Assembly: GCA_016209735.1 (NCBI GenBank)
Contig: JACQVN010000009.1
Span: 113,986 to 177,985, forward strand
DNA: 64,000 nt
Source of the DNA: Candidatus Methylomirabilota bacterium
GTDB taxonomy: Bacteria > Methylomirabilota > Methylomirabilia > Methylomirabilales > 2-02-FULL-66-22
Reading direction: 5' to 3'
Below the pieces are notes generated by a model. That model had not been told where the DNA came from and did no database searches. It was given only the letters and a program-made list of their open reading frames with translations. Positions within the stretch are counted from its first letter, which is position 1, and each line of letters begins with the position of its first letter. The position numbers and the translations under genes are program-made. Below, piece after piece: positions 26,028-38,776 of the stretch.

Positions 26028-26381
26028 TCAGACCAGAAGCATGCGCATGGGCTGTAACGTCCGGGAGAACGGGTGCAGAATGAGACCGAGCATTTCCAGC
26101 GTGACGCCACCCAAGAGGGGCTCATCGCCGGGCTGTCCGATGATGACAGGGGTGTGGCCGTCTCCTTGAGGGAGGCAGACATGGCATTCTGAAACTTCCC
26201 GCTCAACGGTTGAACCGTCCGCCAGGGTGAAGGTAACCGACCGTTTTGGGACGAGCCCAAGCAGCTTGGACTCCTGCGCGGGGAGCAGGGTATAGGTTGC
26301 CCCGGTGTCAACCAGGAAACGGACGGTTGCCCGCATTCCTGTGGGGCCCGTTGCGGTTCCTTCTATGTACGTGATGCCCAC
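26028..26381 (-). CDS. Retroviral-type (clan AA) aspartic protease-like protein
   Basis: RFLVDTGATYTLLPAQE...VIIGQPGDEPLLGGVTLEMLGLILHP; DTGAT plus LLGGVTLEMLGL. Confidence 0.85.
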   Translation of the reverse strand: MGITYIEGTATGPTGMRATVRFLVDTGATYTLLPAQESKLLGLVPKRSVTFTLADGSTVEREVSECHVCLPQGDGHTPVIIGQPGDEPLLGGVTLEMLGLILHPFSRTLQPMRMLLV

Positions 26382-26401: not shown

Positions 26402-28660
26402 CTACGAGAGTCCGAAAAGCCTCTTAACCAGGCTGGAAGCCTTGGCGGCGTTCCGGGACGCCCGGCCCGACATGCGCCGCGGCTCGTGGCCGTAGGCATA
26501 CCGGTAGTATTCCAACTCTTCATAATCCGGGCTGATTTCGGCCTTCAGGCCGGTGAGGACTATGCCAAGAACGGTCCCGCGGACGTTCTCGAGCAACGTC
26601 TTGGCGCGCTTCAGGGCGGAGCGGGCGATCTTGCCGACCCGATAGACGATGAGCGTGCCGTCGGTCTTGGAGGCCAGGATGGCCGCATCGGTCACCGGCA
26701 GGATGGGCGGGCAGTCGAAGATGACGAAGTCAAACTCTTGTCGAAACCCGGCGATGAGTTCCGTCATGCGTTGGGAGTTGAGAAACTCGGTCGGATTCGG
26801 GGGCGGCGTGCCGCTGGTCAACATGAAGAGCTTGTCCAGGTTCGGCGCCGCCATCACTCTGTCGACCCCCAGGGGGCCCAGCATGAGGTCGGTGGCAGAG
26901 CGGAGGCAGGCTCGCCAGTCGCCGTTGCCCACGATGACCTCCGTGAGACCCGGCTCGCGCGGGATCCCGAAGGCGTGGTGGAGGAAGGGCTTCCGCAGGT
27001 CGGCCTCCACCAAGAGCGTCCGCTTGCCCATCTGCGCGACGGTGGTGGCCAGGTTGATGGCCGTCGTGGTCTTGCCCTCCATCAAGGAGGCACTGGTGAC
27101 GCAGATCGCCTTCGCTTTCTTCTCCAGGGACAGGAACTCCACGTTGGTGCGAAGAGAGCGGTAGGATTCTGCCACCGTGGACCGGGGGCTCAGGAGAGTG
27201 ATGAGGAACGGCCGAAGCCTGTCAAGGGCTTCGTCTTCCTCACCCGGAGTGGGTGCGATGTATGGGTCCTTCGGGTCGATATTCGGGATGAGCCCAAGGA
27301 CTGGAGTCTCGAGATAACTCTCGACGTCCTGAATGGTGCCGATGGAGGTGTCGAGCGATTCGAAAACGAAGGCCAGGACGAAACCAACCGTCAGCCCGAT
27401 CAGGAATCCCACGACGGTCTTCCCAGTCGTCCCGGGCGGATTGATGGGGGCGGTCGGAATCGTGGCAGGCCGGACGATGGAGACCTCGTCGGCCTGTTCT
27501 TTCTCGCGGATCTGAACCTCCTGGAGCTTGGTGCGGAGATTGGCGTACAGGTTCTCGTTCAAGGTCAATTCCCGTTGGAATTGGGCGTACTGGCGGGACA
27601 CATCGGGAATGTTGCGCTGCTGCTGTCTGATCTGCTGGATGGTCTGCTGCAACTCGGCTTCCCGGGCTTGCATGACCCGCTCTTTCGCCCGCAATTCCCG
27701 GGTGAGAGCAGCGCGGGTTGCCGCAACGTGGTTCTCGAGGTTTTTTCGCATCGTGGCGATGCGTGCCTCGATGTCCTGCACATGGGGATGGCGGGGGGTG
27801 AGGGTGACCAGCAGGTTCTCGCGCTCGATGGTCAGGTCCACCAGGGCGGTTGACAGCTTGGCGTACATCGGATCGGAGCCGCCGGCAAGGAGTTGGGGTG
27901 GAAGGCCCTCCCCGTAGGCCTGAGCCTCCTGGAGGGATCGAAGCTGGCTGGCGGTCTCCTCGCGAGCGGCGCGGGCCTTTTCCAGTTCGGCTTCCAGGGC
28001 ATTCACCCGGGTGAGGGAGGCGGCGGTTTCCTCGGACAACGACACGATGCCTCGCCGTTCCTTGAGGCTGCGGAGGCCGTCCTCGGCCTGCTGAATGCGG
28101 GCGGTATTCTCGGCCAACTGCTCCTCGATGAACCGGCGCGCCTCGCGGATCTGCTGGCTCCGGACGGTGACGTTTTCTTCGTGATACCCCTGCGCGACCG
28201 CATTGGCAACCCTGGTCGCCTCGGCAGGGACCGGAGAGGTTACGGAGATATTGATCAGGCTCGTGTTTTCCTCGGGCTTGGCATCGATGCGCCCCCGGAT
28301 GTCGCTCAGGCGTTGGATATAATTGGGATTCTGGCGAACCGCCTCGCTATCCAGGTCAGGAGGAATGAGGCGGAGGATCTTGGCCGCACGTTCGATGACG
28401 GTGAAGCTGCGGATCACGGCGGCTTGAGTCGCCGTCGAGTCGCCCGTCCCGAAGGAGAGGCTCTGCACCAAGAGCCCCACCAGGTTCGTCGACCGCTCGA
28501 ACTTCACCACGGCGGTGGACTGGTAGATCGGATCGGGCTGCTGGACCTCGGCATAGGCAAACGCCATGGCGCCGAAGGCCACCGTGATGAGGACGACGGT
28601 CCATTTCCGTTTCCGGATGATCCGCCAGTAGTCGCGAAGATTCAGGTCGTACTGCGTCAT
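26402..28660 (-). CDS. Wzc-type polysaccharide co-polymerase / BY-kinase
   Basis: Wzz N-terminus, coiled coil, SASLMEGKTTTAINLATTVAQMGKRTLLVEADLRKP, Tyr-rich tail YEELEYYRYAYGHE. Confidence 0.92.
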   Translation of the reverse strand: MTQYDLNLRDYWRIIRKRKWTVVLITVAFGAMAFAYAEVQQPDPIYQSTAVVKFERSTNLVGLLVQSLSFGTGDSTATQAAVIRSFTVIERAAKILRLIPPDLDSEAVRQNPNYIQRLSDIRGRIDAKPEENTSLINISVTSPVPAEATRVANAVAQGYHEENVTVRSQQIREARRFIEEQLAENTARIQQAEDGLRSLKERRGIVSLSEETAASLTRVNALEAELEKARAAREETASQLRSLQEAQAYGEGLPPQLLAGGSDPMYAKLSTALVDLTIERENLLVTLTPRHPHVQDIEARIATMRKNLENHVAATRAALTRELRAKERVMQAREAELQQTIQQIRQQQRNIPDVSRQYAQFQRELTLNENLYANLRTKLQEVQIREKEQADEVSIVRPATIPTAPINPPGTTGKTVVGFLIGLTVGFVLAFVFESLDTSIGTIQDVESYLETPVLGLIPNIDPKDPYIAPTPGEEDEALDRLRPFLITLLSPRSTVAESYRSLRTNVEFLSLEKKAKAICVTSASLMEGKTTTAINLATTVAQMGKRTLLVEADLRKPFLHHAFGIPREPGLTEVIVGNGDWRACLRSATDLMLGPLGVDRVMAAPNLDKLFMLTSGTPPPNPTEFLNSQRMTELIAGFRQEFDFVIFDCPPILPVTDAAILASKTDGTLIVYRVGKIARSALKRAKTLLENVRGTVLGIVLTGLKAEISPDYEELEYYRYAYGHEPRRMSGRASRNAAKASSLVKRLFGLS

Positions 28661-28670
28661 GCACTCCCCC

Positions 28671-29759
28671 TCACTGGCTGAGGTCGCTGAGGGCCTTGAT
28701 CTGGAGGACCGTGGAGACGGGCTGGTTGATGAGGGTGAAGGTGGGGAGAATCTGGCTCACGAAGGCATTCCAGCTCGCGATCTTCGTCCGGGGGACGAAC
28801 ACGATATCGTTGGGCCTCAAGTACTGGTCGATTTGCTTGTCCCCTTCGAGGAGAAGCTGCCGGAGGTCGACGGTGAGAATCTCGGTCACCTCCGGCGCCG
28901 CGCGGATTACTGCGGCCTCTTCGTAAAGTGCCCCATCGGTCCAGCCCCCCACCTGGGCGATCAATTGCCCCATGGTGAGATTGGGGAAGTAGGGAACAGG
29001 GCCGGGAGCCTTGACCTCGCCCAGCAAGTACACACGCTGCTCCGGAGCCTTGACCTGTGTTGGGACGAATACGGTGTCCCCGGCATCCAGGGGGAATTCC
29101 AGGGACGGATCGCCCTCCTGCAGGTACCGGAACATGTTCACGAAATAGACCTTGCCGTTCGCCCTGGTCACCCTGACACGTTCCATGTTGGCGTTGGCGG
29201 AAAAGCCGCCGGCTTTCGCGATGGCCTCCGGGAGGGTCAATCGGCCGGTCAGGGGGAGGACGGCGCCCAACGCCAGGGCCGAGGTGCCCACGGCGCCGAA
29301 CACGCGGAGCTTCTTGCTGTTGAACTCTTTCACCTGCACATCGACTCGTGGGTTCTTGAAGAATGCCGCCAGTTGCTTGGAGATGGCCCCGGCCGCCTGC
29401 TCGGTCGTCAGGCCGTCCACCGGAATCTCCGCGAGCAGGACGAAAATCGTGCCATCCGAGCGAACGGTCGTTTGAAGTTTTTCCTGCGAGGGGCCGCGGG
29501 TGACGGTCAGGTCCAGCACGTCCCCAACGCCGATTCTGTATTGGGGCACTCCCCTCACCAGGACGAAGGCTTGATTCTCCGAAACGGGAGGGGGAAGCTC
29601 TGTCGGGAGGTCTTTCGGCGCGGGTCGGACAACCGCCGGGGGCTGCGGAAACGTCGGCGCATTGGCGGAGGTTGAACGGGAGGGCTTCCACAGGCCGCCG
29701 CAGCCGGCGATGATTATCGCAGCGAGAATCAGCAAGGAAGAGGCTAGAGATCGCTTCAC
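28671..29759 (-). CDS. Polysaccharide export lipoprotein (Wza-like)
   Basis: Lipobox LAAIIIAGCGG; YRIGVGDVLDLTVTRGPSQEKLQTTVRSDGTIFVLLAEIPVDGLT. Confidence 0.88.
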   Translation of the reverse strand: MKRSLASSLLILAAIIIAGCGGLWKPSRSTSANAPTFPQPPAVVRPAPKDLPTELPPPVSENQAFVLVRGVPQYRIGVGDVLDLTVTRGPSQEKLQTTVRSDGTIFVLLAEIPVDGLTTEQAAGAISKQLAAFFKNPRVDVQVKEFNSKKLRVFGAVGTSALALGAVLPLTGRLTLPEAIAKAGGFSANANMERVRVTRANGKVYFVNMFRYLQEGDPSLEFPLDAGDTVFVPTQVKAPEQRVYLLGEVKAPGPVPYFPNLTMGQLIAQVGGWTDGALYEEAAVIRAAPEVTEILTVDLRQLLLEGDKQIDQYLRPNDIVFVPRTKIASWNAFVSQILPTFTLINQPVSTVLQIKALSDLSQ

Positions 29760-29887
29760 CGTATTTCCTCTCACACCGCCCGCAGAAATGCTACAGAACG
29801 TTGGCAAACATGTCAAAGAGGAACAAGGATCCAGCCTGATCCGCAGCAATAACACTCTCGCCAGGACGCAAAAGCCGCCCAGAGGGA

Positions 29888-31222
29888 TCAGCTTCTGTCA
29901 GGGGACTGCCCAGCGCGGAAGACGCCACCTCGAGGCGGCAGGCATGCGCTCTCTGGGCCCGTATTGTGCGTATCAGCCCTGGTGGTCCGGGCATCCAACC
30001 CCGGCGTTCGGTGATCCTGGCGAGGGGCAGAATGCCGGGTGAAGGTGGGGGATGGCCCACCCATGAGGTGGAGGGCGAGACTCCGCAGCACCCCGAGCCC
30101 CAAACGCCAGATGGTTCCCCATCCCGTCTTCTTATTGCCTGCGTCGGAGAAGCCGGTCCGAAACGCATCGGAATGAGGGAAGAGGATCTGCCGGAGGTAG
30201 AGGAGCTTATGCCTCCAGCCGGCGAGGCCGCACAAGGTAAACGCGTAGCGAACTGCCTCGGGCAGTGTCCCGCGGGAGGCGGCCGCCACGAGTCTCCGCT
30301 CGCCAGCGTACAGAGATCGGGGGCGGACCCGGTCCTGCAAGTCGGGGGAGGGCAGGCCCCGGATGGTCATGGCCTCCAAACAATACCAGAGGCTTCGACG
30401 GACGGAAGCGGGCATGGCAGCCAGATCGTTCGCTGGCAAGGGCCATTTCTCCATGCACTGCAAGAGGTCGGCCATCCAAAGGGACCCCGCCAGCCCATGG
30501 TGGTGAACGGCGTGGACGGCCAGGTGAATGGCGGTGTCAAGGGGCCCCAATGTCTGGATCGGCGTGCCCACGAGCCGGAATGTCCGATGGCGGCCCCAGA
30601 GCTCTGCAAAAGATACGGGCCAGAGCGCCCGCCGGGCGGGGATGCGCGTGACGTTCATCGGGGCGGTGTGCACGTCCAGGCTGAATTCCCGAGACGGGGG
30701 GAAGAAATCCTCCTCGCCCCGCAGGTCGTTCCGGTAGCCCCGCGTCCGCAGAATCTCCGCCAGCCCGTCCCTGTCGTTCTCCCGCACGAGAAGGTCGATG
30801 TCATCCATGGGGCGCGGGATCCCTGGGGGATAGACGGTGGCGGCGAGGGCAACTCCTTTCAGCACGAGAAGGGGAATCCCGGCCCCCGTCGCGTGGTCGA
30901 CAACCTCCACACACGCCTGCTCGAGGCGCGAAAGCCGGATCCCTGCCCGGAGCGTTTCGCGCCGCGCTTCCCGGAGGCACTCGGCCGGAACCCCGCTCGT
31001 CTTTGCCAGGCCCCGCGTGAGTCCGGCATAGACGAAAGGGGTCAGGCGGTTCGCCCGGGACTCGCGAAGGAGCGCCGGCCATTCCACGTGCCCGTCGAGG
31101 CGCGCCGCGAGCCGCAGAGAGGCGTCCTGGTGGCCCAGACCCGCCAGGGCGGCATCCCACATCAGGCGCGCGGTACTTTCTTTTTGACTTCCCGCCGCGC
31201 TGACCGTATGCTCCCGTGCCAT
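29888..31222 (-). CDS. NTP_transf_5-type nucleotidyltransferase (PF14907-like)
   Basis: PLLVLKGVALAATVYPPGIPRPMDDIDLLVRENDRDGLAEILRTRGY; ATG at 31222 (alternative GTG at 31246). Confidence 0.82.
   Translation of the reverse strand: MAREHTVSAAGSQKESTARLMWDAALAGLGHQDASLRLAARLDGHVEWPALLRESRANRLTPFVYAGLTRGLAKTSGVPAECLREARRETLRAGIRLSRLEQACVEVVDHATGAGIPLLVLKGVALAATVYPPGIPRPMDDIDLLVRENDRDGLAEILRTRGYRNDLRGEEDFFPPSREFSLDVHTAPMNVTRIPARRALWPVSFAELWGRHRTFRLVGTPIQTLGPLDTAIHLAVHAVHHHGLAGSLWMADLLQCMEKWPLPANDLAAMPASVRRSLWYCLEAMTIRGLPSPDLQDRVRPRSLYAGERRLVAAASRGTLPEAVRYAFTLCGLAGWRHKLLYLRQILFPHSDAFRTGFSDAGNKKTGWGTIWRLGLGVLRSLALHLMGGPSPTFTRHSAPRQDHRTPGLDARTTRADTHNTGPESACLPPRGGVFRAGQSPDRS
31184..31212 (+). promoter_or_regulatory. 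Sigma70-like promoter for PqqD: TTGACT-N17-TATGCT
   Basis: TTGACT 31184-31189, 17-nt spacer, TATGCT 31207-31212; ATG lies 8 nt downstream with no SD. Confidence 0.55.
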
Positions 31223-31520
31223 GGTTGGGTTATCCGATTCCGCCACCTACCGGCAAGCCGAGGACTTTGTCTCCAGGAACATCGCCGGCGAGACGGTCCT
31301 CGTGCCCCTCCGCCGGCAGATCGGGGACTTGGATTCCATCTACACCCTGAACGAGGTCGCCACCTTCATCTGGGAATGCCTGGCCCAACCCAGCACAGTG
31401 GGCCAGCTCACCCAGGCCCTCGGGGAAGCCTTCGACGCCCCGCCGGCCACGATCCGGCAGGATCTCGAGGAGCATCTCGGCCAGCTCCTGGCTATCGGGG
31501 CCATCCGGCCAGCCGCCTGA
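31221..31520 (+). CDS. PqqD family peptide chaperone (RRE-like)
   Basis: VLVPLRRQIGDLDSIYTLNEVATFIWECLAQPSTVGQLTQALGEAFDAPPATIRQDLEEHLGQLLAIGAI. Confidence 0.9.
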   Translation: MVGLSDSATYRQAEDFVSRNIAGETVLVPLRRQIGDLDSIYTLNEVATFIWECLAQPSTVGQLTQALGEAFDAPPATIRQDLEEHLGQLLAIGAIRPAA

Positions 31521-31980
31521 CCCCTTTCCGCAGCCGTTCCCCGCTTTCCCCGATCACCCCGCCGCCCAGGGACCGCACTCCGCGGAGGATGCCGGCGATC
31601 CGCGGCCAGCCCCGGTCCAGCGCGATCACCGCTTCCCCTCGGACACGCGCCGCAACGATCGCTGCCACACGGTCTGCCGGGAAGGGAGGATCGAATCGCC
31701 AGAGGCTGTCCCCCTTGGTGAGAAGCCAAGGCTCGCCGTTCCGCCGCAGGCGGCCCACCAGGCGATGGGTGCGGGGCCCCGAGGCGCCGAGCCAGACGAC
31801 GACGGTCCCGAACCGTAGTCCTCCGGAGGCTGCCGGGACGAGCCGGAGGGTGTCTCCGTGCTGGAAGGCGGGGGACATGCTGGACCCGCGGAGGCGAATC
31901 TCCGCCCGCCGCTCGGCCCTGTCCAGCGCCTCGACCACCGGGCCCAGGAGTTCCGGCCGCAGTCGCAGATGATGAGTCAT
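31492..31980 (-). CDS. S24/S26 family peptidase (signal-peptidase-like)
   Basis: LRGSSMSPAFQHGDTLRLVPA...RTHRLVGRLRRNGEPWLLTKGDSLWRFDPPFPADRVAAIV; ATGA overlap with the upstream gene. Confidence 0.78.
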   Translation of the reverse strand: MTHHLRLRPELLGPVVEALDRAERRAEIRLRGSSMSPAFQHGDTLRLVPAASGGLRFGTVVVWLGASGPRTHRLVGRLRRNGEPWLLTKGDSLWRFDPPFPADRVAAIVAARVRGEAVIALDRGWPRIAGILRGVRSLGGGVIGESGERLRKGVRRLAGWPR

Positions 31981-32855
31981 CCCTGCGCCAGCACCCATTC
32001 CACCGCCCGCTCGTCCGGTGGAACCATGAGCCAGCCGGACGGGACGTCTCGGCAGGCCGCCTCCAGCACCTCGAGGGTGCGGGCGAGCCGCTCGGGATCC
32101 CACAGGGGCGGGAAGGACTTGGCGAACAAGAGGGCGGCAGCGGCGACCGGCCGGAGCGGTTCGAACGCCACGTCGGGTCCCTGGCGCAAGAAGAAGATAG
32201 CGTGAAGCGGAGTCGCCGTTCCGCCCACATCCGGATGCTGGCCGAACCAGGGGGTGGCGTGGATTCGAATGCCGCCGGGCGAGGCTTCGAGGATGGTGCG
32301 ATCGTCGTTCAGCATTGTCCCACCGGCCGCCTTCCACAATCCGGCCGTGGTGCTCTTCCCCGCCCCGGACGAGCCCACGAACAGATACCCCCGCCCCTGC
32401 CAGGAAATCCCGCAGGCATGGAGCAAGACGCTGCCGAAATCTGCCAGCAGGTGACGGAACAGCAGTTCTTCCAGGGGGTATTGAAGCGGATAGACGCTCT
32501 GGAGTTCCGGCGACTGCTCGATATCCAGGTCGAGTGTCCCCCCCGCTCCGGAAGCGTCCAGGGTGGCGGCCCTATCCGGTCGAATCTCGGCATCATCTCC
32601 GCCGACTTGAAATCGCCAGGTGCGACCGTTCAGGTACACGCCGGCCAGACCGCCTAGGCGAAACACCGGCCACCGGCGCGTGCCGGCGAGGGAAATGTAG
32701 CGCAGCCGAACCGTCAGGTCGGGACTTGGCGTGGATTCCAGGAACCGATGGTGAGCGGGATCGAGCGGCCATCGGGACCCGTCGAATTCACCCTCCAGGG
32801 CGATGCAGGGTGGCCCGATGCGAAGGCTGATTCGCTGATATGGCGGGGGACTCAC
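31977..32855 (-). CDS. HprK-like P-loop kinase
   Basis: VLLHACGISWQGRGYLFVGSSGAGKSTTAGLWKAAGGTMLNDDRTIL. Confidence 0.82.
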   Translation of the reverse strand: MSPPPYQRISLRIGPPCIALEGEFDGSRWPLDPAHHRFLESTPSPDLTVRLRYISLAGTRRWPVFRLGGLAGVYLNGRTWRFQVGGDDAEIRPDRAATLDASGAGGTLDLDIEQSPELQSVYPLQYPLEELLFRHLLADFGSVLLHACGISWQGRGYLFVGSSGAGKSTTAGLWKAAGGTMLNDDRTILEASPGGIRIHATPWFGQHPDVGGTATPLHAIFFLRQGPDVAFEPLRPVAAAALLFAKSFPPLWDPERLARTLEVLEAACRDVPSGWLMVPPDERAVEWVLAQG

Positions 32856-32880: not shown

Positions 32881-33075
32881 TCATGAGCCCGTGCTGTCTC
32901 TGCACCGACCAGGTCCTGAAATCGTGCACGGGGTCGGCGGCGTCACGTTCCTTCCGCCGCCCCCTGGCGGGAAGGTGCTCTTGCAGTTGGGGGTGCCCGC
33001 CATCTCTTCCCCCACGAGGTTCACCCGCTCGATGCTCGGCTTGGCGTAGGGCCTCTTCCGTCCTTCATTGCTCAT
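32881..33075 (-). CDS. Putative RiPP precursor peptide (64 aa)
   Basis: MSNEGRKRPYAKPSIERVNLVGEEMAGTPNCKSTFPPGGGGRNVTPPTPCTISGPGRCRDSTGS; SD AGGAG 6 nt upstream of ATG; 25 bp ahead of the HprK-like gene. Confidence 0.72.
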   Translation of the reverse strand: MSNEGRKRPYAKPSIERVNLVGEEMAGTPNCKSTFPPGGGGRNVTPPTPCTISGPGRCRDSTGS

Positions 33076-33334
33076 AGCGTGCTCCTGCGCAGGTCCCCGA
33101 TTGACCAGTTGACCAATCCACGAATCGACTAACGATCTGACCCAACCTGGCCCCCTCCGGCTCTCTCGCTCCGCCTCTCGCGAGGATGAGCAGGATGCTG
33201 AATCCCCCTCCGTTCGCCCTTCGATCCCGCCTGGGCGGGACTCAGGCTGAGCGGAGGATAGCTCGAAATCCATGGTGTAGTCCCGCTCATGCTGAGCCCG
33301 TCGAAGCATGGAAAATTTCGTTTTTAGCATCCTG

Positions 33335-34441
33335 CTAGAAGAGGGGAGGCTTGGTTTCCCCGAAGGCTCGAGCCCGAGCCCGCGTGACCTCGCACAGAAA
33401 CGGAATCAAGCCCTCCGGATCTCCGGTTTCGATCTGCGACCACCCGATACACCTATCGCAGGCGGCATTGTACGCGCAACCATCGCACGGGACGGCTCTG
33501 GTGCGGAGCCGGGCCCGCATGGCCGGGAAAAATTCCTCCCACCCCTGCCGTAGCGAGCCTTCCTGCAGATTATAGGCCGGCCAGCGGACCAGCATGCAGG
33601 GGAAGAGATTCCCGTAGGGATCGATATGGAAGGTATTGAGGTATGCGCCGCAGGTGACCAGGTCCTCGGGGGGGTCGAACCGGTGCCGCTCCCGGAATTC
33701 CTTGCGGAAGTGCTCCGCCCGGACTGGTTCTTGAGCATCCAGGGCGGCAATCTGCTCGCCGCTGAGCCGGACTGCGGCCGGACCGGTGCCGCCGTCCACG
33801 CGGCAGTTGATCAGCGGATCCCAATGGAATTTCAGCCCGAACCAGGCGGCCAGGGACCGCATCCCGTCCATGTCGTGGCTGTTCAAGGTCATGGGGATGG
33901 TCTTGAGGCAGACGCGAAGTTTCCGGTTCAGGAGCCGTTCGATGCCCTCGATGCATCGGCGGTAGGAGCCAGGAATGCCGGTGACCGCCTCGTAGACGGG
34001 CTGGGTGCTCCCGTAAACGGTGATCTCCACCGAGAAGGGGGGCCATTCCGCCAGGAAGTCTGCGACGCGCGGGGTGAGCATCGTGCCGTTGGTGAACAGG
34101 GTGGGCACCACCCCCCTCCGCTTCATGTGGAGGTAGATGTCCATGAAGTCGGATCGGAGGAGCGGCTCGCCGCCCGTGAGGAGCAGGTAGAGGCACCCCA
34201 GATCTACGGCCTCGTCGGTGATGCGATGAATCTCTCTAGTCGAGAGTTCCTCGTGCCTGACGCGGCGGGCCCCAGGTGGCTCGTTCACATAGCAGTGGAC
34301 GCACCGCAAATTGCAGCGGAACGTCAGCTCGATGCTGCCGTCGAGCGGGATGCGTTCCCTGCTGACACGGGTCGCGATCCGCGCGTAGAATCCCTCGTAA
34401 CGGATTGTCGGGACCGAGCGCCTGGGGCAGATTGCCGTCAT
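33335..34441 (-). CDS. Radical SAM/SPASM domain protein
   Basis: ELTFRCNLRCVHCYV (CxxxCxxC), TGGEPLLR; SPASM-like cysteines CGAYLNTFHIDPYGNLFPC...CDGCAYNAACDRC...FLCEV. Confidence 0.92.
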   Translation of the reverse strand: MTAICPRRSVPTIRYEGFYARIATRVSRERIPLDGSIELTFRCNLRCVHCYVNEPPGARRVRHEELSTREIHRITDEAVDLGCLYLLLTGGEPLLRSDFMDIYLHMKRRGVVPTLFTNGTMLTPRVADFLAEWPPFSVEITVYGSTQPVYEAVTGIPGSYRRCIEGIERLLNRKLRVCLKTIPMTLNSHDMDGMRSLAAWFGLKFHWDPLINCRVDGGTGPAAVRLSGEQIAALDAQEPVRAEHFRKEFRERHRFDPPEDLVTCGAYLNTFHIDPYGNLFPCMLVRWPAYNLQEGSLRQGWEEFFPAMRARLRTRAVPCDGCAYNAACDRCIGWSQIETGDPEGLIPFLCEVTRARARAFGETKPPLF

Positions 34442-34884
34442 GGCAACGGAAGGACCGAATCCGGGATGTTGACCACGCCGACAAAGTTGCTGCCGACGTC
34501 GGTGACGATCAGCCGGACCGCGCCAGGGATGGCCGGGATGTGGAACGCATCGGCGACAACGGCGAGGGGGGTGTCCCGATGGATGGCGACACTCCGCAGT
34601 TCGCAGAGCGTCAGCGTCCCGATTTTCGCAAACGTCTGCACCTCAGCCACCCCGAAAATTCCGTACGGCGTGGTAATTGCCGCGACGCCGTTGGGATATC
34701 CAGGTGAGCGCGGCAGGACCGCCACCCCTTCGGGGTAGTCTATCCCGGCGAGTCGCCCCTCCCCGGGGTTAAGATCCGGGCCGTTCTGTATTCGGAGCTG
34801 TGCCCATGACGTACAGGAGAGTGTTGGTCGAGAGATCGACGCGTCGGGCCGGCACCGACCCGTCCTTCTTGGTGGCCGCGACAA
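34438..34884 (-). CDS. Small protein of unknown function, coupled to the radical SAM gene (true start uncertain)
   Basis: Stop overlaps radical SAM start as ATGA; GIDYPEGVAVLPRSPGYPNGVAAITTPYGIFGVAEVQTFAKIGTLTLCELRSVAI. Confidence 0.45.
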   Translation of the reverse strand: MSRPPRRTGRCRPDASISRPTLSCTSWAQLRIQNGPDLNPGEGRLAGIDYPEGVAVLPRSPGYPNGVAAITTPYGIFGVAEVQTFAKIGTLTLCELRSVAIHRDTPLAVVADAFHIPAIPGAVRLIVTDVGSNFVGVVNIPDSVLPLP

Positions 34885-35794
34885 TCTCTACGACCGGGCG
34901 CAGAGGGAAGGCCGGATTCGTGGCGACGATCTGGGCAATCTCCCCGGTGTTCAACCGAACCAAGCTTCCGACGGGAAACGTGGACAGCCCGCGGATGAAT
35001 CCCTTGAGGACGTGGCTGGGGAACCGCTGCCGCTCCGTGTTGATGATTTCTTTGACGGCTTCCAGGGGGAATCGGGCCTGCGGTCGGTGGGGGCGCGGAT
35101 GGGTGAGGGCTTCGTAGGTGTCGGCCACGCCGATGATCTTGGAGAAATCGTGAATCTCTTCCCCTTTGAGGCGCCGGGGATATCCGCTCCCGTCCTCGCG
35201 CTCGTGGTGCTGGATGACGACATTGGCCAGCCACTCGTATTCCGGACCCAGTCCCTGCAAGAGACGATAGCCCTTTTCCGGGTGCATCCGGACCAAGTCC
35301 CGCTCTTCGGCGGTCAGCGCCGAAGGCTTGCTCAGGATGCGGGGGGGCACGATGACCATTCCGATGTCGTGGAGACCTCCCGCCAGGGCCAACCAGGGCA
35401 ACTCCTCCTCGCGCGCTTCGAGACCCTGCCCGATCTTGACGGCGAAGATGGCAGTATTGAGCATGTGGCGCGGCCGGTCGAGCTGGGTCTCCCTTGGCTC
35501 CAAGGCTTTGAGGAGCAGGTCGTCGGCTGCTGTCAGATCCCTGACGAGTGCTGCCATGATGCGCTGGAGGTTGCCGATACGGATAGCCGTCCCGTCGGCG
35601 GCCGCCTGGAACAACCGGGCAATCTCTTGCACGGCGACATCATAGTACAGAGATTCCGTTTGCGCGGGGGCGGCGGCCCGCGTGGGCAGGCCCGTCTCCT
35701 GGGCCGGAAGTTCCTGCCGCGGCGTCGCCATCTCGGCGAAAGAAATGGGGGAATCCTGCTGCGGCTTGACGGTCCCAGCCCCTTTCCTGACCAA
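34769..35794 (-). CDS. HD-GYP domain protein
   Basis: GGLHDIGMVIVP...HHEREDGSGYPRRLKGEEI...ADTYEALTHPRPHR. Confidence 0.88.
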   Translation of the reverse strand: MVRKGAGTVKPQQDSPISFAEMATPRQELPAQETGLPTRAAAPAQTESLYYDVAVQEIARLFQAAADGTAIRIGNLQRIMAALVRDLTAADDLLLKALEPRETQLDRPRHMLNTAIFAVKIGQGLEAREEELPWLALAGGLHDIGMVIVPPRILSKPSALTAEERDLVRMHPEKGYRLLQGLGPEYEWLANVVIQHHEREDGSGYPRRLKGEEIHDFSKIIGVADTYEALTHPRPHRPQARFPLEAVKEIINTERQRFPSHVLKGFIRGLSTFPVGSLVRLNTGEIAQIVATNPAFPLRPVVEIVAATKKDGSVPARRVDLSTNTLLYVMGTAPNTERPGS

Positions 35795-35862
35795 GTCGCT
35801 GAGGCGAACGATGGCCGCTCCTCCTTCGCGCTATTTCATTCCGTCCGTAGGGCGCCTCGCCG

Positions 35863-36660
35863 CTAAACGGCGGCGGCGACCACGCGCTTCACCATGGCGA
35901 CGTCAACCGTTTGAGCCCCTGTGGTGCACCCGTCCAGGAGGCACAGGTCGCATAAGGTGTTGATGCTCCGGGGGACCCCCTGGGACTTCTCCCAGACGAT
36001 GGTCAAGGCCTCCTCGGTAAAGAACGGTCGGGTGGCGCCGGCCCGCTCCAACCGGAAGGCGATGTATCGGGCAGTCTCCCTTCGGTCCAGTGGCCGCAGA
36101 ACGTATCGGATGGCAATCCGTTGGTCCAGTTGGCGGATCCGGCTGATGGTGTCCTTGATCTCCGGCTGGGCCATGAGGATCAGGGTCATCAGGAACCGCT
36201 CGTTCAACTGGAAGTTCAAGAGCATGCGCAGTTCCTCGAAGACCTCGGGATCGTGGATCGCATGCGCCTCGTCCACGATGAGGACCGTATCCTTTCCGTC
36301 GTCCAGATTCCTGAGCAGTCGCTCGTTCAGTGCCCGCAGCAGGGCCACCTTGGAGGTGGAGGCGGGAATGATTCCCAACTGGAGGTCGATTTCTTCCAAA
36401 AAATCGTTCCTGGGTAAGGAGGGGTTGGTGATCAACCCGATGTCGAATTTTTCCTCGGCGAGCTGGACGATAAGGGCGCGACTGAGCGTAGTCTTGCCGC
36501 AGCCCACGTCACCGATGAGCAGCGCGGCCCCTTTGTTGTGCCGAACCGTGTAAAGCAGCCGGGCCAGTCCTTCCCGGTGTTGGTCGGAGAGGAAAAAGAA
36601 GTTCGGGTCAGGGACGTTTTGGAAGGGGGGCTTTGTCAATCCCCAGTGGCTTTCATACAC
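35863..36660 (-). CDS. ExeA/GspA-like AAA ATPase
   Basis: YESHWGLTKPPFQNVPDPNFFF...GDVGCGKTTLSRAL; GTG at 36660 with AAGGAG upstream. Confidence 0.88.
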   Translation of the reverse strand: MYESHWGLTKPPFQNVPDPNFFFLSDQHREGLARLLYTVRHNKGAALLIGDVGCGKTTLSRALIVQLAEEKFDIGLITNPSLPRNDFLEEIDLQLGIIPASTSKVALLRALNERLLRNLDDGKDTVLIVDEAHAIHDPEVFEELRMLLNFQLNERFLMTLILMAQPEIKDTISRIRQLDQRIAIRYVLRPLDRRETARYIAFRLERAGATRPFFTEEALTIVWEKSQGVPRSINTLCDLCLLDGCTTGAQTVDVAMVKRVVAAAV

Positions 36661-37012
36661 GCTTGGCTCCTTCCGCGGCACACCTGTCTTTCTTGCCCCA
36701 GGGGGAGGACCGACACATCCGGCCCACCACGGCATCAAACACCATGGGGCCGAAAGCCAAAAACACCCTCCGGGAGCCTCCGTCCGGCCGCACCGGGCAC
36801 GGCAGAGCCTTGGAATTAGCCACAAAACCGCAGCGAAACTAGCATACAATACCATAAAAGCAAGGAAAAACTTGAGGTTGTCCCAAACATTCGGCCGAAA
36901 AGCCGGAAGCCGCCAGGGGCGTCCTGACGCTCGCGGAGAACCCTGCGGCGGCGGGCGGCCGCCACCGCCCTCTTTGCGGAACCGGTTTTTTTCCGTCGGC
37001 CCCATTTTTCTC

Positions 37013-37040: not shown

Positions 37041-37096
37041 CAACTAGAAAATTTAGGCCGGTGCGGCGACGCTCGGGGAGGAAAGGGGGTAGTTCA

Positions 37097-37540
37097 TTGC
37101 ACGCACTGGGCAGGCACCTGCTGGTTGAACTCCATGGATGTCAGCCCGAACTGCTCAAGCGAGTCGATCTCGTCCGGGATATCCTTGTCGGCGCCGCTCG
37201 CGCCTGCGGGGCCACCATCGTCGATGTGGCGTTTCACGAGTTCAACCCCTTCGGCGTGAGCGGGGTGGTGGTGATCGCGGAATCCCATCTGTCAATTCAC
37301 ACCTGGCCGGAATACCGCTACGCTGCGGTGGATGTCTTCACCTGCGGCGATGTGATCAAGCCGGATGCTGCCGTGGCTTACCTGGCCTCTCGGTTCCGCT
37401 GCAAGAATCCTTCGGTGGTGGAGATGAGGCGGGGGATCGTCCCCGGCCTCACCGGCAAAGTGACTCACAAGATTACCGCCGAGGAGAAGACCGGCCAGGG
37501 CGCGTCCCATGACGCCCCGGAACTCTCTTTGGTTCATTGA
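37097..37540 (+). CDS. speD: S-adenosylmethionine decarboxylase proenzyme
   Basis: GVVVIAESHLSIHTWPEYRYAAVDVFTCGD; TTG start after GGAGG-containing region. Confidence 0.92.
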   Translation: MHALGRHLLVELHGCQPELLKRVDLVRDILVGAARACGATIVDVAFHEFNPFGVSGVVVIAESHLSIHTWPEYRYAAVDVFTCGDVIKPDAAVAYLASRFRCKNPSVVEMRRGIVPGLTGKVTHKITAEEKTGQGASHDAPELSLVH

Positions 37541-37555
37541 GCGTCGCAATACCCG

Positions 37556-37601
37556 CGAAGGGCACCTCTCCGCAGGCTGGCCGGGAGGTGCCCTTTGGTT
37601 T
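37556..37601 (+). terminator. Rho-independent terminator after speD
   Basis: AAGGGCACCTC...GAGGTGCCCTTTGGTTTTT. Confidence 0.75.
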
Positions 37602-37845
37602 TTGCGCTGAGCGCGCAAAAACCATATTGAAAGACATCAGGGGAACCCTGTGGGATTGGCTGGGAGTAAACGGCGACCACCCCCGCAGGAGATACCCCCG
37701 AAGGTGACGCACGGCGGAACACGGCCCGAATCGCAGGGGGTCACCTCCCATCATGCGTCCCCTTGATGAGACTGGTCGGAAGCCCTGTGCAAAAATTCTT
37801 TGCTTCACCAAGTTTGGTTTTTGCGCTCCCAAGCGCAAAAACCAA
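37597..37845. repeat. Hairpin-bounded dispersed element, copy 1
   Basis: GGTTTTTGCGCTGAGCGCGCAAAAACC at 37597-37623; TTGGTTTTTGCGCT-CCCA-AGCGCAAAAACCAA at 37814-37845; interior matches reverse complement of 62516-62850. Confidence 0.85.
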
Positions 37846-37858
37846 GGTGGAGGGAGCC

Positions 37859-38776
37859 ATGCCATTGCAGGACCACCAATTGTTCATCGAGGCCTTCAGC
37901 CCGCACGAAGGCCATGTGCACGGGGTGACCGGCATCCTGGCGAGCCGCCGCTCTCCGTTCCAGCTTATCGAGGTGGTTGAGCTGGGAAGCTACGGGAGAG
38001 CGCTCATCCTGGACGGGAAGGTTCAGTCCACGACATTGGACGAGTTCATCTACCATGAGAGCATCATCCACCCGGCGATGCTCTGCCACCCAAACCCCCG
38101 TCGGGTATTTGTGGTGGGGGGAGGGGAAGGAACGCCCCTCCGCGAGATCCTCAAGCACCGGGGCGTAGAGCACGCCCTCCTGGTGGATATCGACAGTGAG
38201 GTGGTAGAGCTTTGCCGGCGCCATCTTCCGGAAATGAGTGCGGGGGCCTTCGACGACCCGCGCGTTCGCGTGGAGTTCATGAACGCGCGCACGTTTCTCG
38301 AAACCTCCGAGGAAACCTTCGACACCATGATCATCGACATCTCCGAGCCGGTCGAAGAGGGGCCCGCCTATCTCCTGTATACGCAGGAGTTCTACCGGAT
38401 TGTCTATGATCGCTTGACCGAGCACGGCACCCTGGCGGTGCAGGCGGGAACGATCAGTCTCGCCGATCTGGAGTGTTTCGCCACCATCCACTCGACGATC
38501 CGGAGCGTGTTTCCGGTGGTCGCCCCGTATTTCGCGGATATCCCCTCCTTCGGCAGGCCCTGGGGGTTCGTGCTGGCGAGCAAGGGACGGAATCCCGCAG
38601 CGGCGGACCGTGGGGAAATCGATCGGATGGTCGAGGCACGGCTCCGCGGACCGCTCCGGTACTACGACGGCGAGACGCATACCATGATGTTTGCGTTGCC
38701 CAAGCACGTGCGGGAACGCCTGGCGGCAGAGACCCGCGTCATCGAGGATAACCACCCCCTCTTCGCGTTCCGCTAG
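37859..38776 (+). CDS. speE: Spermidine synthase
   Basis: MPLQDHQLFIEAFSPHEGHVHGVTGILASRRSPFQLIEVVELGSYGRALILDGKVQST...VVGGGEGTPLREIL. Confidence 0.93.
   Translation: MPLQDHQLFIEAFSPHEGHVHGVTGILASRRSPFQLIEVVELGSYGRALILDGKVQSTTLDEFIYHESIIHPAMLCHPNPRRVFVVGGGEGTPLREILKHRGVEHALLVDIDSEVVELCRRHLPEMSAGAFDDPRVRVEFMNARTFLETSEETFDTMIIDISEPVEEGPAYLLYTQEFYRIVYDRLTEHGTLAVQAGTISLADLECFATIHSTIRSVFPVVAPYFADIPSFGRPWGFVLASKGRNPAAADRGEIDRMVEARLRGPLRYYDGETHTMMFALPKHVRERLAAETRVIEDNHPLFAFR

Follow-up and report, generated by a model that had tools for sequence, protein, structure and literature searches.

A short open reading frame (ORF) lies on the minus strand of the 64,000-nucleotide stretch of DNA analysed here as a whole (hereafter the window), which is carried by contig C55 of a 1.7-Mb assembly that is 69% complete. 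Running from an ATG at position 33,075 to a stop codon that ends at position 32,881, it encodes a protein of 64 amino acids, MSNEGRKRPYAKPSIERVNLVGEEMAGTPNCKSTFPPGGGGRNVTPPTPCTISGPGRCRDSTGS. Its start region, read on the minus strand, is ...CAGGAGCACGCTATG..., with AGGAG at 33,086–33,082, and 25 nt separate its stop from the GTG of the kinase gene at 32,855. An earlier interpretation of the locus (the sequence-only reading) had described this ORF, with AGGAG 6 nt before the ATG and the stop 25 nt ahead of the kinase gene; re-reading confirmed these features and the position, and supplied the strand, which had not been given. The three cysteines (Cys31, Cys50, and Cys58), the GGGG run, and the YAKPSI...L motif described at that time are all present. 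The protein itself matches no family in Pfam or NCBIfam. Together with its neighbors, the ORF forms a six-gene cassette encoding a PqqD protein (RRE), a radical SAM/SPASM enzyme, the predicted precursor, an HprK-like kinase, an archaeal/Sec11-type signal peptidase, and an NTP_transf_5 protein (Table 1).

Table 1. Positions in the window of the predicted precursor gene, the other cassette genes, and the flanking genes
Feature	Positions	Strand	Remarks
HD-GYP-like protein and XrtA/PEP-CTERM-type ATPase (TIGR03015, below its cut-off)	34769..37005	-	Upstream of the cassette
Radical SAM/SPASM maturase	33335..34441	-	CxxxCxxC and seven invariant C-terminal Cys of the SPASM domain; upstream of the precursor gene, same strand
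Shine-Dalgarno AGGAG	33082..33086	-	6 nt before the ATG; read directly from the sequence
Predicted RiPP precursor, 64 aa	32881..33075	-	Leader with Y10-A-K-P13-S-I15 RRE motif to residue ~30; core from Cys31; Ser64 C-terminal
HprK-like serine kinase	31977..32855	-	Walker A GSSGAGKST, NDDR, invariant H146; start GTG; downstream of the precursor gene
Archaeal/Sec11-type signal peptidase I homologue	31492..31980	-	Candidate leader peptidase; Ser-His-Asp conserved across the family
PqqD-family discrete RRE (PF05402)	31221..31520	+	Strand opposite to the rest of the cassette
NTP_transf_5 (PF14907) nucleotidyltransferase	29888..31246	-	Divergent from the PqqD gene, overlaps its 5' end
Wza-like export protein and Wzc-like chain-length/tyrosine-kinase genes	26402..29855	-	Start of the enclosing exopolysaccharide locus

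Within the cassette, the ATG of the signal-peptidase gene overlaps the kinase stop (ATGA). The overlap of the divergent PqqD and nucleotidyltransferase (NTase) genes at their 5' ends (31,221–31,246) is an arrangement also seen in the genome G003 (L038, 7,677–7,681). Beyond the Wza- and Wzc-like genes, on the same side, lie genes for an O-antigen polymerase/ligase, an ABC exporter, and glycosyltransferases. Together with the HD-GYP-like and XrtA-type genes, these flanking genes place the cassette inside what is, by predicted gene content, an exopolysaccharide (EPS) locus. A gene for a 23S_rRNA_IVP protein (PF05635; 22,995–23,678) lies between the ABC-2 permease and ABC ATPase genes of the polysaccharide exporter. 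A small retropepsin-like aspartyl protease is encoded beside the EPS genes (26,028–26,381), and another at L025 (16,587–16,892), about 4 kb from the NTase gene of that cassette locus. Several copies of intergenic inverted repeats (TTGGTTTTTGCGCT / AGCGCAAAAACCAA) occur at 37,558–37,847, between the ORFs 37,061–37,540 and 37,763–38,776, in a setting that looks like a polyamine operon.

The first homologues of the precursor came from a kinase search of related genomes; the class-level relatives of the source assembly include Methylomirabilota and Rokubacteria genomes. A genome-collection scan with the radical SAM alignment gave 50 loci, of which 45 were examined. Genes for the radical SAM enzyme were counted at 44 of these, PqqD at 42, the HprK-like kinase at 40, the precursor at 40, the peptidase at 33, and the NTase at 24; the loci were gathered via the radical SAM enzyme, so that its own count is no evidence, and the figures for the peptidase and NTase are minimum values, as many stretches end at contig ends or at the 5-kb flank. 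According to the record titles, the carriers of these related cassettes, about 45 loci from about a dozen mostly uncultivated phyla, include Aminicenantes, Nitrospinae, WOR-3, Deltaproteobacteria, Aerophobetes, Nitrospirota, Acidobacteria/Vicinamibacteria, Omnitrophota, Elusimicrobia, Myxococcales, and Lentisphaerae. In 35 of 38 loci the precursor gene lies between the radical SAM and kinase genes on the same strand, and in three it lies outside that gap. Two tandem precursor paralogues, with different cores and similar TIGS ends, are found upstream of the radical SAM gene at L058 (476–1,464). No precursor was found at L053, where PqqD, radical SAM, kinase, peptidase, and NTase genes are all there, or at L054, which is without PqqD and kinase genes; their precursors are possibly divergent. 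At least one homologue of the HD, ATPase, Wza, or Wzc proteins occurs in the fetched stretch at 16 of the 45 loci, in several phyla, and HD-GYP-like/XrtA-type ATPase genes are found near several homologous cassettes. This EPS linkage is suggestive and not a formal enrichment; its recurrence hints at a cell-surface role.

The closest homologue is encoded in G003 (L004/L038), a genome of the same genus. It has 63 residues (MNPTSTKAAYRKPTIERISLVGEETAAVPNCKRSNGGGKGRTFPNPCLTTGGMGKRCRDQVGS), is 49% identical, and sits between the same two genes, the radical SAM enzyme and the kinase reaching 62% and 55%, respectively. The G003 cassette keeps the gene order of the window, and here too the PqqD gene lies on the other strand and diverges from the NTase gene; no peptidase gene is present inside this cassette (L019/L038), a 39% homologue being encoded on another contig (G003:C33). 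Absence of the ORF from close relatives that keep the cassette had been named as a finding that would speak against a precursor; instead, the ORF is kept in this nearest cassette-bearing relative, and a homologue of 46–65 residues is present in 38 of the 39 loci with both a radical SAM and a kinase gene. Furthermore, a profile built on 22 precursors alone recovered the remaining homologues, in the corresponding position and across many phyla; most of these held-out sequences scored independent E-values of 1e-9 to 1e-20. By these comparisons the ORF is more than a chance frame, because the same-genus relative keeps it and the profile finds held-out homologues in the same place; judged from its sequence, the small gene is a genuine precursor gene. 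A spurious reading frame would fit a short ORF in GC-rich DNA with many overlapping frames, and 38 homologues that give zero matches to NCBIfam models and a single weak one to Pfam (SerH, E 0.006), which we took as chance. Given that 38 homologues spread over about a dozen phyla share the position, leader spacing, Cys, and C-terminus, such a frame is extremely improbable.

Alignment of 38 precursors, which are related sequences so that no formal probability is claimed for the counts, revealed a conserved leader followed by a core variable in sequence and length. The common leader pattern is K/R-x-Y-x-x-P-x-[ILV], in its fuller form YxKPx[IV]xxVxLxxEEAVLxxCK. K/R is found at -3 of the Tyr in 35 precursors, the Tyr itself in 37 (Phe in one), and Pro at +3 in all 38, followed by I/L/V/M at +5, V/I/L at +8, mostly Leu at +10, and mostly acidic residues at +13/+14. 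The first conserved Cys comes 20 residues after the Tyr in 36 precursors and 21 in two, those of the window and G003, and is directly followed by K/R in 37. In the leader stretch between the Tyr and the Cys-Lys, pairwise identity averages 45%, versus 12% in the core outside the conserved Cys columns. The proposed leader/core split is thus borne out, and the uniform conservation that would have argued against it was not observed. Conservation of the motif across the family also supports the suggestion of a YxxP leader of the type bound by PqqD-type RREs. In the same way, the Cys residues stand as putative radical SAM targets, being conserved beside a radical SAM enzyme; 30 of 39 homologues have three Cys and five have only two.

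The C-terminus is equally constant. The last residue is Ser in 35 and Thr in three of the 38 precursors, whereas Ser/Thr ends make up 5–26% in five neighboring protein families. The sequence-only reading had offered the Ser/Thr-rich tail as a kinase target; a Ser target holds, but the likely site is the single C-terminal Ser/Thr and not the tail in general. The weak homologue at L057 ends in Gly despite a kinase at the locus, and the homologue at L073 keeps a GS end with no kinase in its 11-kb stretch. A candidate cleavage site lies directly before Cys31, where residue -1 is A/G/N/T/S in 35 of 38 precursors and residue -3 mostly Leu. By analogy with cleavage after FET in the linear polyphosphorylated peptides (LPP) considered below, a second candidate lies about four residues before Cys31.

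In the alignment of the radical SAM enzyme, C40, C44, and C47 are invariant, as are C261, C279, C316, C319, C325, C328, and C347 in SPASM spacing, and its nearest solved chains in the PDB are peptide maturases of the SkfB, PqqE, and CteB type. Its best NCBIfam match is the mycofactocin maturase (102 bits; cut-off 265), and it stays below every equivalog cut-off. The kinase has an invariant P-loop, His146, and Asp184 in the family alignment; its model (pLDDT 91) shows the fold of the PEPCK/HPr-kinase group, HPr kinase was also found by sequence, and the best NCBIfam match is ScmC (28.7 bits). The Ser, His, and Asp of the peptidase are conserved in its family alignment, and SEC11 is its nearest solved relative by sequence and fold, the fold match being weak (E 0.0025; model mean pLDDT 74). 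Its orthologue at L040 (Nitrospinae) passes the TIGR02228 cut-off. This signal-peptidase homologue, which the sequence-only reading had missed, is the probable leader peptidase. The PqqD protein matches PF05402 with 61.9 bits, its nearest solved PDB chain is the lasso RRE TbiB1, and it is predicted to be the leader-binding RRE of the cluster. A discrete RRE, StsC, is also part of a sactipeptide cluster (PMC12710340). The locus thus has what is generally expected of a RiPP cluster, namely a short precursor gene with conserved leader and variable core beside modification enzymes.

By its sequences, the cassette comes closest to the clusters of LPP from Bacillota (Popov et al. 2026, PMC13381572), to which it adds a radical SAM enzyme, Cys residues in the core, and an acceptor at the C-terminus. 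LPP clusters lie in capsule loci and contain an RRE/HprK/SpI/NTP-transferase set; leader cleavage by SpI and action of the kinase on the precursor have been demonstrated, the kinase target being Ser3 of the core, and the paper makes no mention of a radical SAM enzyme (PMC13381572). The present cassette encodes the same set, with a discrete RRE, a YxxP leader, an archaeal-type SpI, no lasso cyclase, and a setting in capsule/EPS loci. It differs in its constant radical SAM/SPASM enzyme, in a core with Cys, in hosts that are not Bacillota, and in the likely phospho-site, which is the conserved C-terminal Ser here and Ser3 of the core, not conserved among the 38 precursors, in LPP. The LPP leader YxxPxVLxHQxIxFETxxS is not found either, only its YxxPx[VIL] part being common to both. 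LPP clusters also have an MsbA-like transporter; the window has an ABC-2 permease with an ABC ATPase of polysaccharide type. A side group in Rokubacteria (L009–L011, L034, and L037) has YEPPEILSQEVFETTALACGK...C...S precursors, encoded beside HprK and a radical SAM enzyme, whose leader is nearly of the LPP type (YxxPxVLxHQxIxFET). With its combination of an LPP-like FETT leader, a radical SAM enzyme, and a C-terminal Ser, this bridging group suggests a single larger group that takes in both LPP and the present family.

In paeninodin, HprK-type kinases phosphorylate the C-terminal Ser, and in pseudomycoidin PsmN adds a hexose to the C-terminal Ser phosphate (PMC9266682). These systems share with the cassette a YxxP-type leader, a discrete RRE, an HprK-like kinase, an NTP_transf-type enzyme, and a C-terminal Ser as phosphate acceptor, for which the invariant Ser/Thr end beside the kinase is the candidate here. 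The cassette is, however, without a B2 peptidase or dedicated cyclase and has a radical SAM enzyme and a signal-peptidase homologue instead. A lasso peptide precursor of the paeninodin kind, served by a kinase and a nucleotidyltransferase as accessory enzymes, would account for the YxxP leader and the discrete PqqD-type RRE, for HprK and NTP_transf_5 being present in paeninodin/pseudomycoidin clusters, and for the sister genomes with HprK beside lasso-type precursors (PYTKPTLTKHKPLRDITA). Yet the lasso leader peptidase PF13471 was not found in the source genome (G000) or the same-class cassette genomes G003, G006, G033, and G059, whereas the same search found it adjacent to the kinase gene in four sister genomes of the same order (G011, G024, G026, and G030), whose precursors have lasso-type leaders. 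The wider cassette set gave weak PF13471 matches only, in 6 of 23 genomes, within frames some 500 or more residues long. Nor was an Asn-synthase-like cyclase found in the cluster; the only Asn-synthase-family (PF00733) protein in the window is of the glutamine-amidotransferase AsnB type, with a GATase domain, 22 kb away. Since neither peptidase nor cluster cyclase was found and the radical SAM enzyme is constant beside a core beginning at Cys, the lasso identity was rejected as highly improbable. Of the lasso likeness put forward in the sequence-only reading, the leader and RRE part stands and the lasso system does not, because the cassette has no lasso leader peptidase. True lasso-type precursors (PYTKPTLTKHKPLRDITA...) lie beside HprK, with PF13471 adjoining, at L014–L017, L027, and L031 (in G024, G011, G030, and G026), sometimes two per locus.

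The sactipeptide/ranthipeptide systems of SkfB, CteB, and StsB likewise have a radical SAM/SPASM enzyme adjoining a Cys-containing precursor, and both the SPASM Cys motifs and such a precursor are found here. To our knowledge, a kinase, an SpI-type peptidase, and NTP_transf_5 are not part of those clusters. If the peptide were simply a radical SAM thioether RiPP of this kind, the kinase would act elsewhere, for example in EPS regulation; the nearest solved relatives, SkfB and CteB-type maturases, and the conserved Cys agree with this. We consider it fairly unlikely, given that the C-terminal Ser/Thr matches the Cys in constancy (38/38), as expected of a paeninodin-type kinase target, that the kinase gene directly follows the precursor gene in most loci, and that the kinase, peptidase, and NTase correspond exactly to the set in LPP. 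The mycofactocin-maturase match, PqqE among the solved relatives, and the wide phyletic spread could also point to a PQQ- or mycofactocin-like cofactor precursor, whose excised residues become a small redox molecule. That is very unlikely with a radical SAM enzyme below every equivalog cut-off and a core that has no conserved Tyr/Val or Glu/Tyr pair and varies in sequence and length, whereas the residues used should be conserved. SynChlorMet (NCBIfam ScmA–ScmF), for which we found no published function in the open-access literature, resembles the cassette in its radical SAM/SPASM proteins, PqqD-like ScmD, precursor ScmA of about 49 residues, and the kinase match to ScmC, but all matches here are far below the cut-offs (100–400 bits). 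None of the ScmA/C/D/E/F cut-offs is passed by a cassette member, none of the 38 precursors matches the ScmA model, and an ScmA search of the source genome gave no match, its control being silent too.

Judged by sequence, the cassette genes lie together, and the precursor combines a leader set at constant spacing from the Cys-Lys, a variable Cys core, and an invariant C-terminal Ser/Thr. We propose a putative model in which the ORF encodes the precursor of a RiPP made by the six-gene cassette, an explanation that we regard, with its maturation steps, as likely. By analogy with characterised relatives, the RRE would bind the YxxP leader and present the peptide. The radical SAM enzyme would form radical-derived bonds at the core Cys; the bond type is not predictable from sequence, and a thioether is the most likely one. 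The kinase would (poly)phosphorylate the C-terminal Ser, although its site could differ, as the LPP kinase acts on core Ser3. The signal-peptidase homologue would cut off the leader, either immediately ahead of Cys31 or some four residues further upstream, and the NTP_transf_5 enzyme may then extend the phosphate by a nucleotide or a sugar, much as PsmN does in pseudomycoidin. In what is the weakest step, the product probably leaves the cell and works at its surface along with the EPS of the enclosing locus. The mature peptide would thus probably be cross-linked by the radical enzyme and carry a phosphate on its last serine. The Gly end at L057, the GS end kept at L073 with no kinase in the 11-kb stretch, the peptidase of G003 encoded elsewhere, the two-Cys homologues, and the three loci with the precursor outside the gap count against this model. 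In another version, the phosphorylated C-terminal Ser would be a sugar attachment point at which NTP_transf_5 and glycosyltransferases encoded nearby assemble polysaccharide on the cross-linked peptide or couple it thereto, making the family a genetically encoded EPS primer or anchor rather than a diffusible antibiotic. This version is unlikely; if true, it would account for the repeated association with Wza/Wzc/XrtA-type loci.

In summary, this RiPP type with radical SAM enzyme and kinase is apparently previously undescribed, as no radical SAM plus HprK RiPP appeared in the open-access literature searched. Its precursor family is modelled by neither Pfam nor NCBIfam, and the cassette unites radical SAM modification with HprK-type serine phosphorylation, two chemistries previously met in different RiPP groups. 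The range of the kinase/signal-peptidase RiPP type is thereby widened beyond Bacillota to about a dozen phyla, most of them uncultivated. The defined precursor and enzyme set is small enough for expression in a laboratory strain, and why such RiPPs occur in capsule/EPS loci is now testable.
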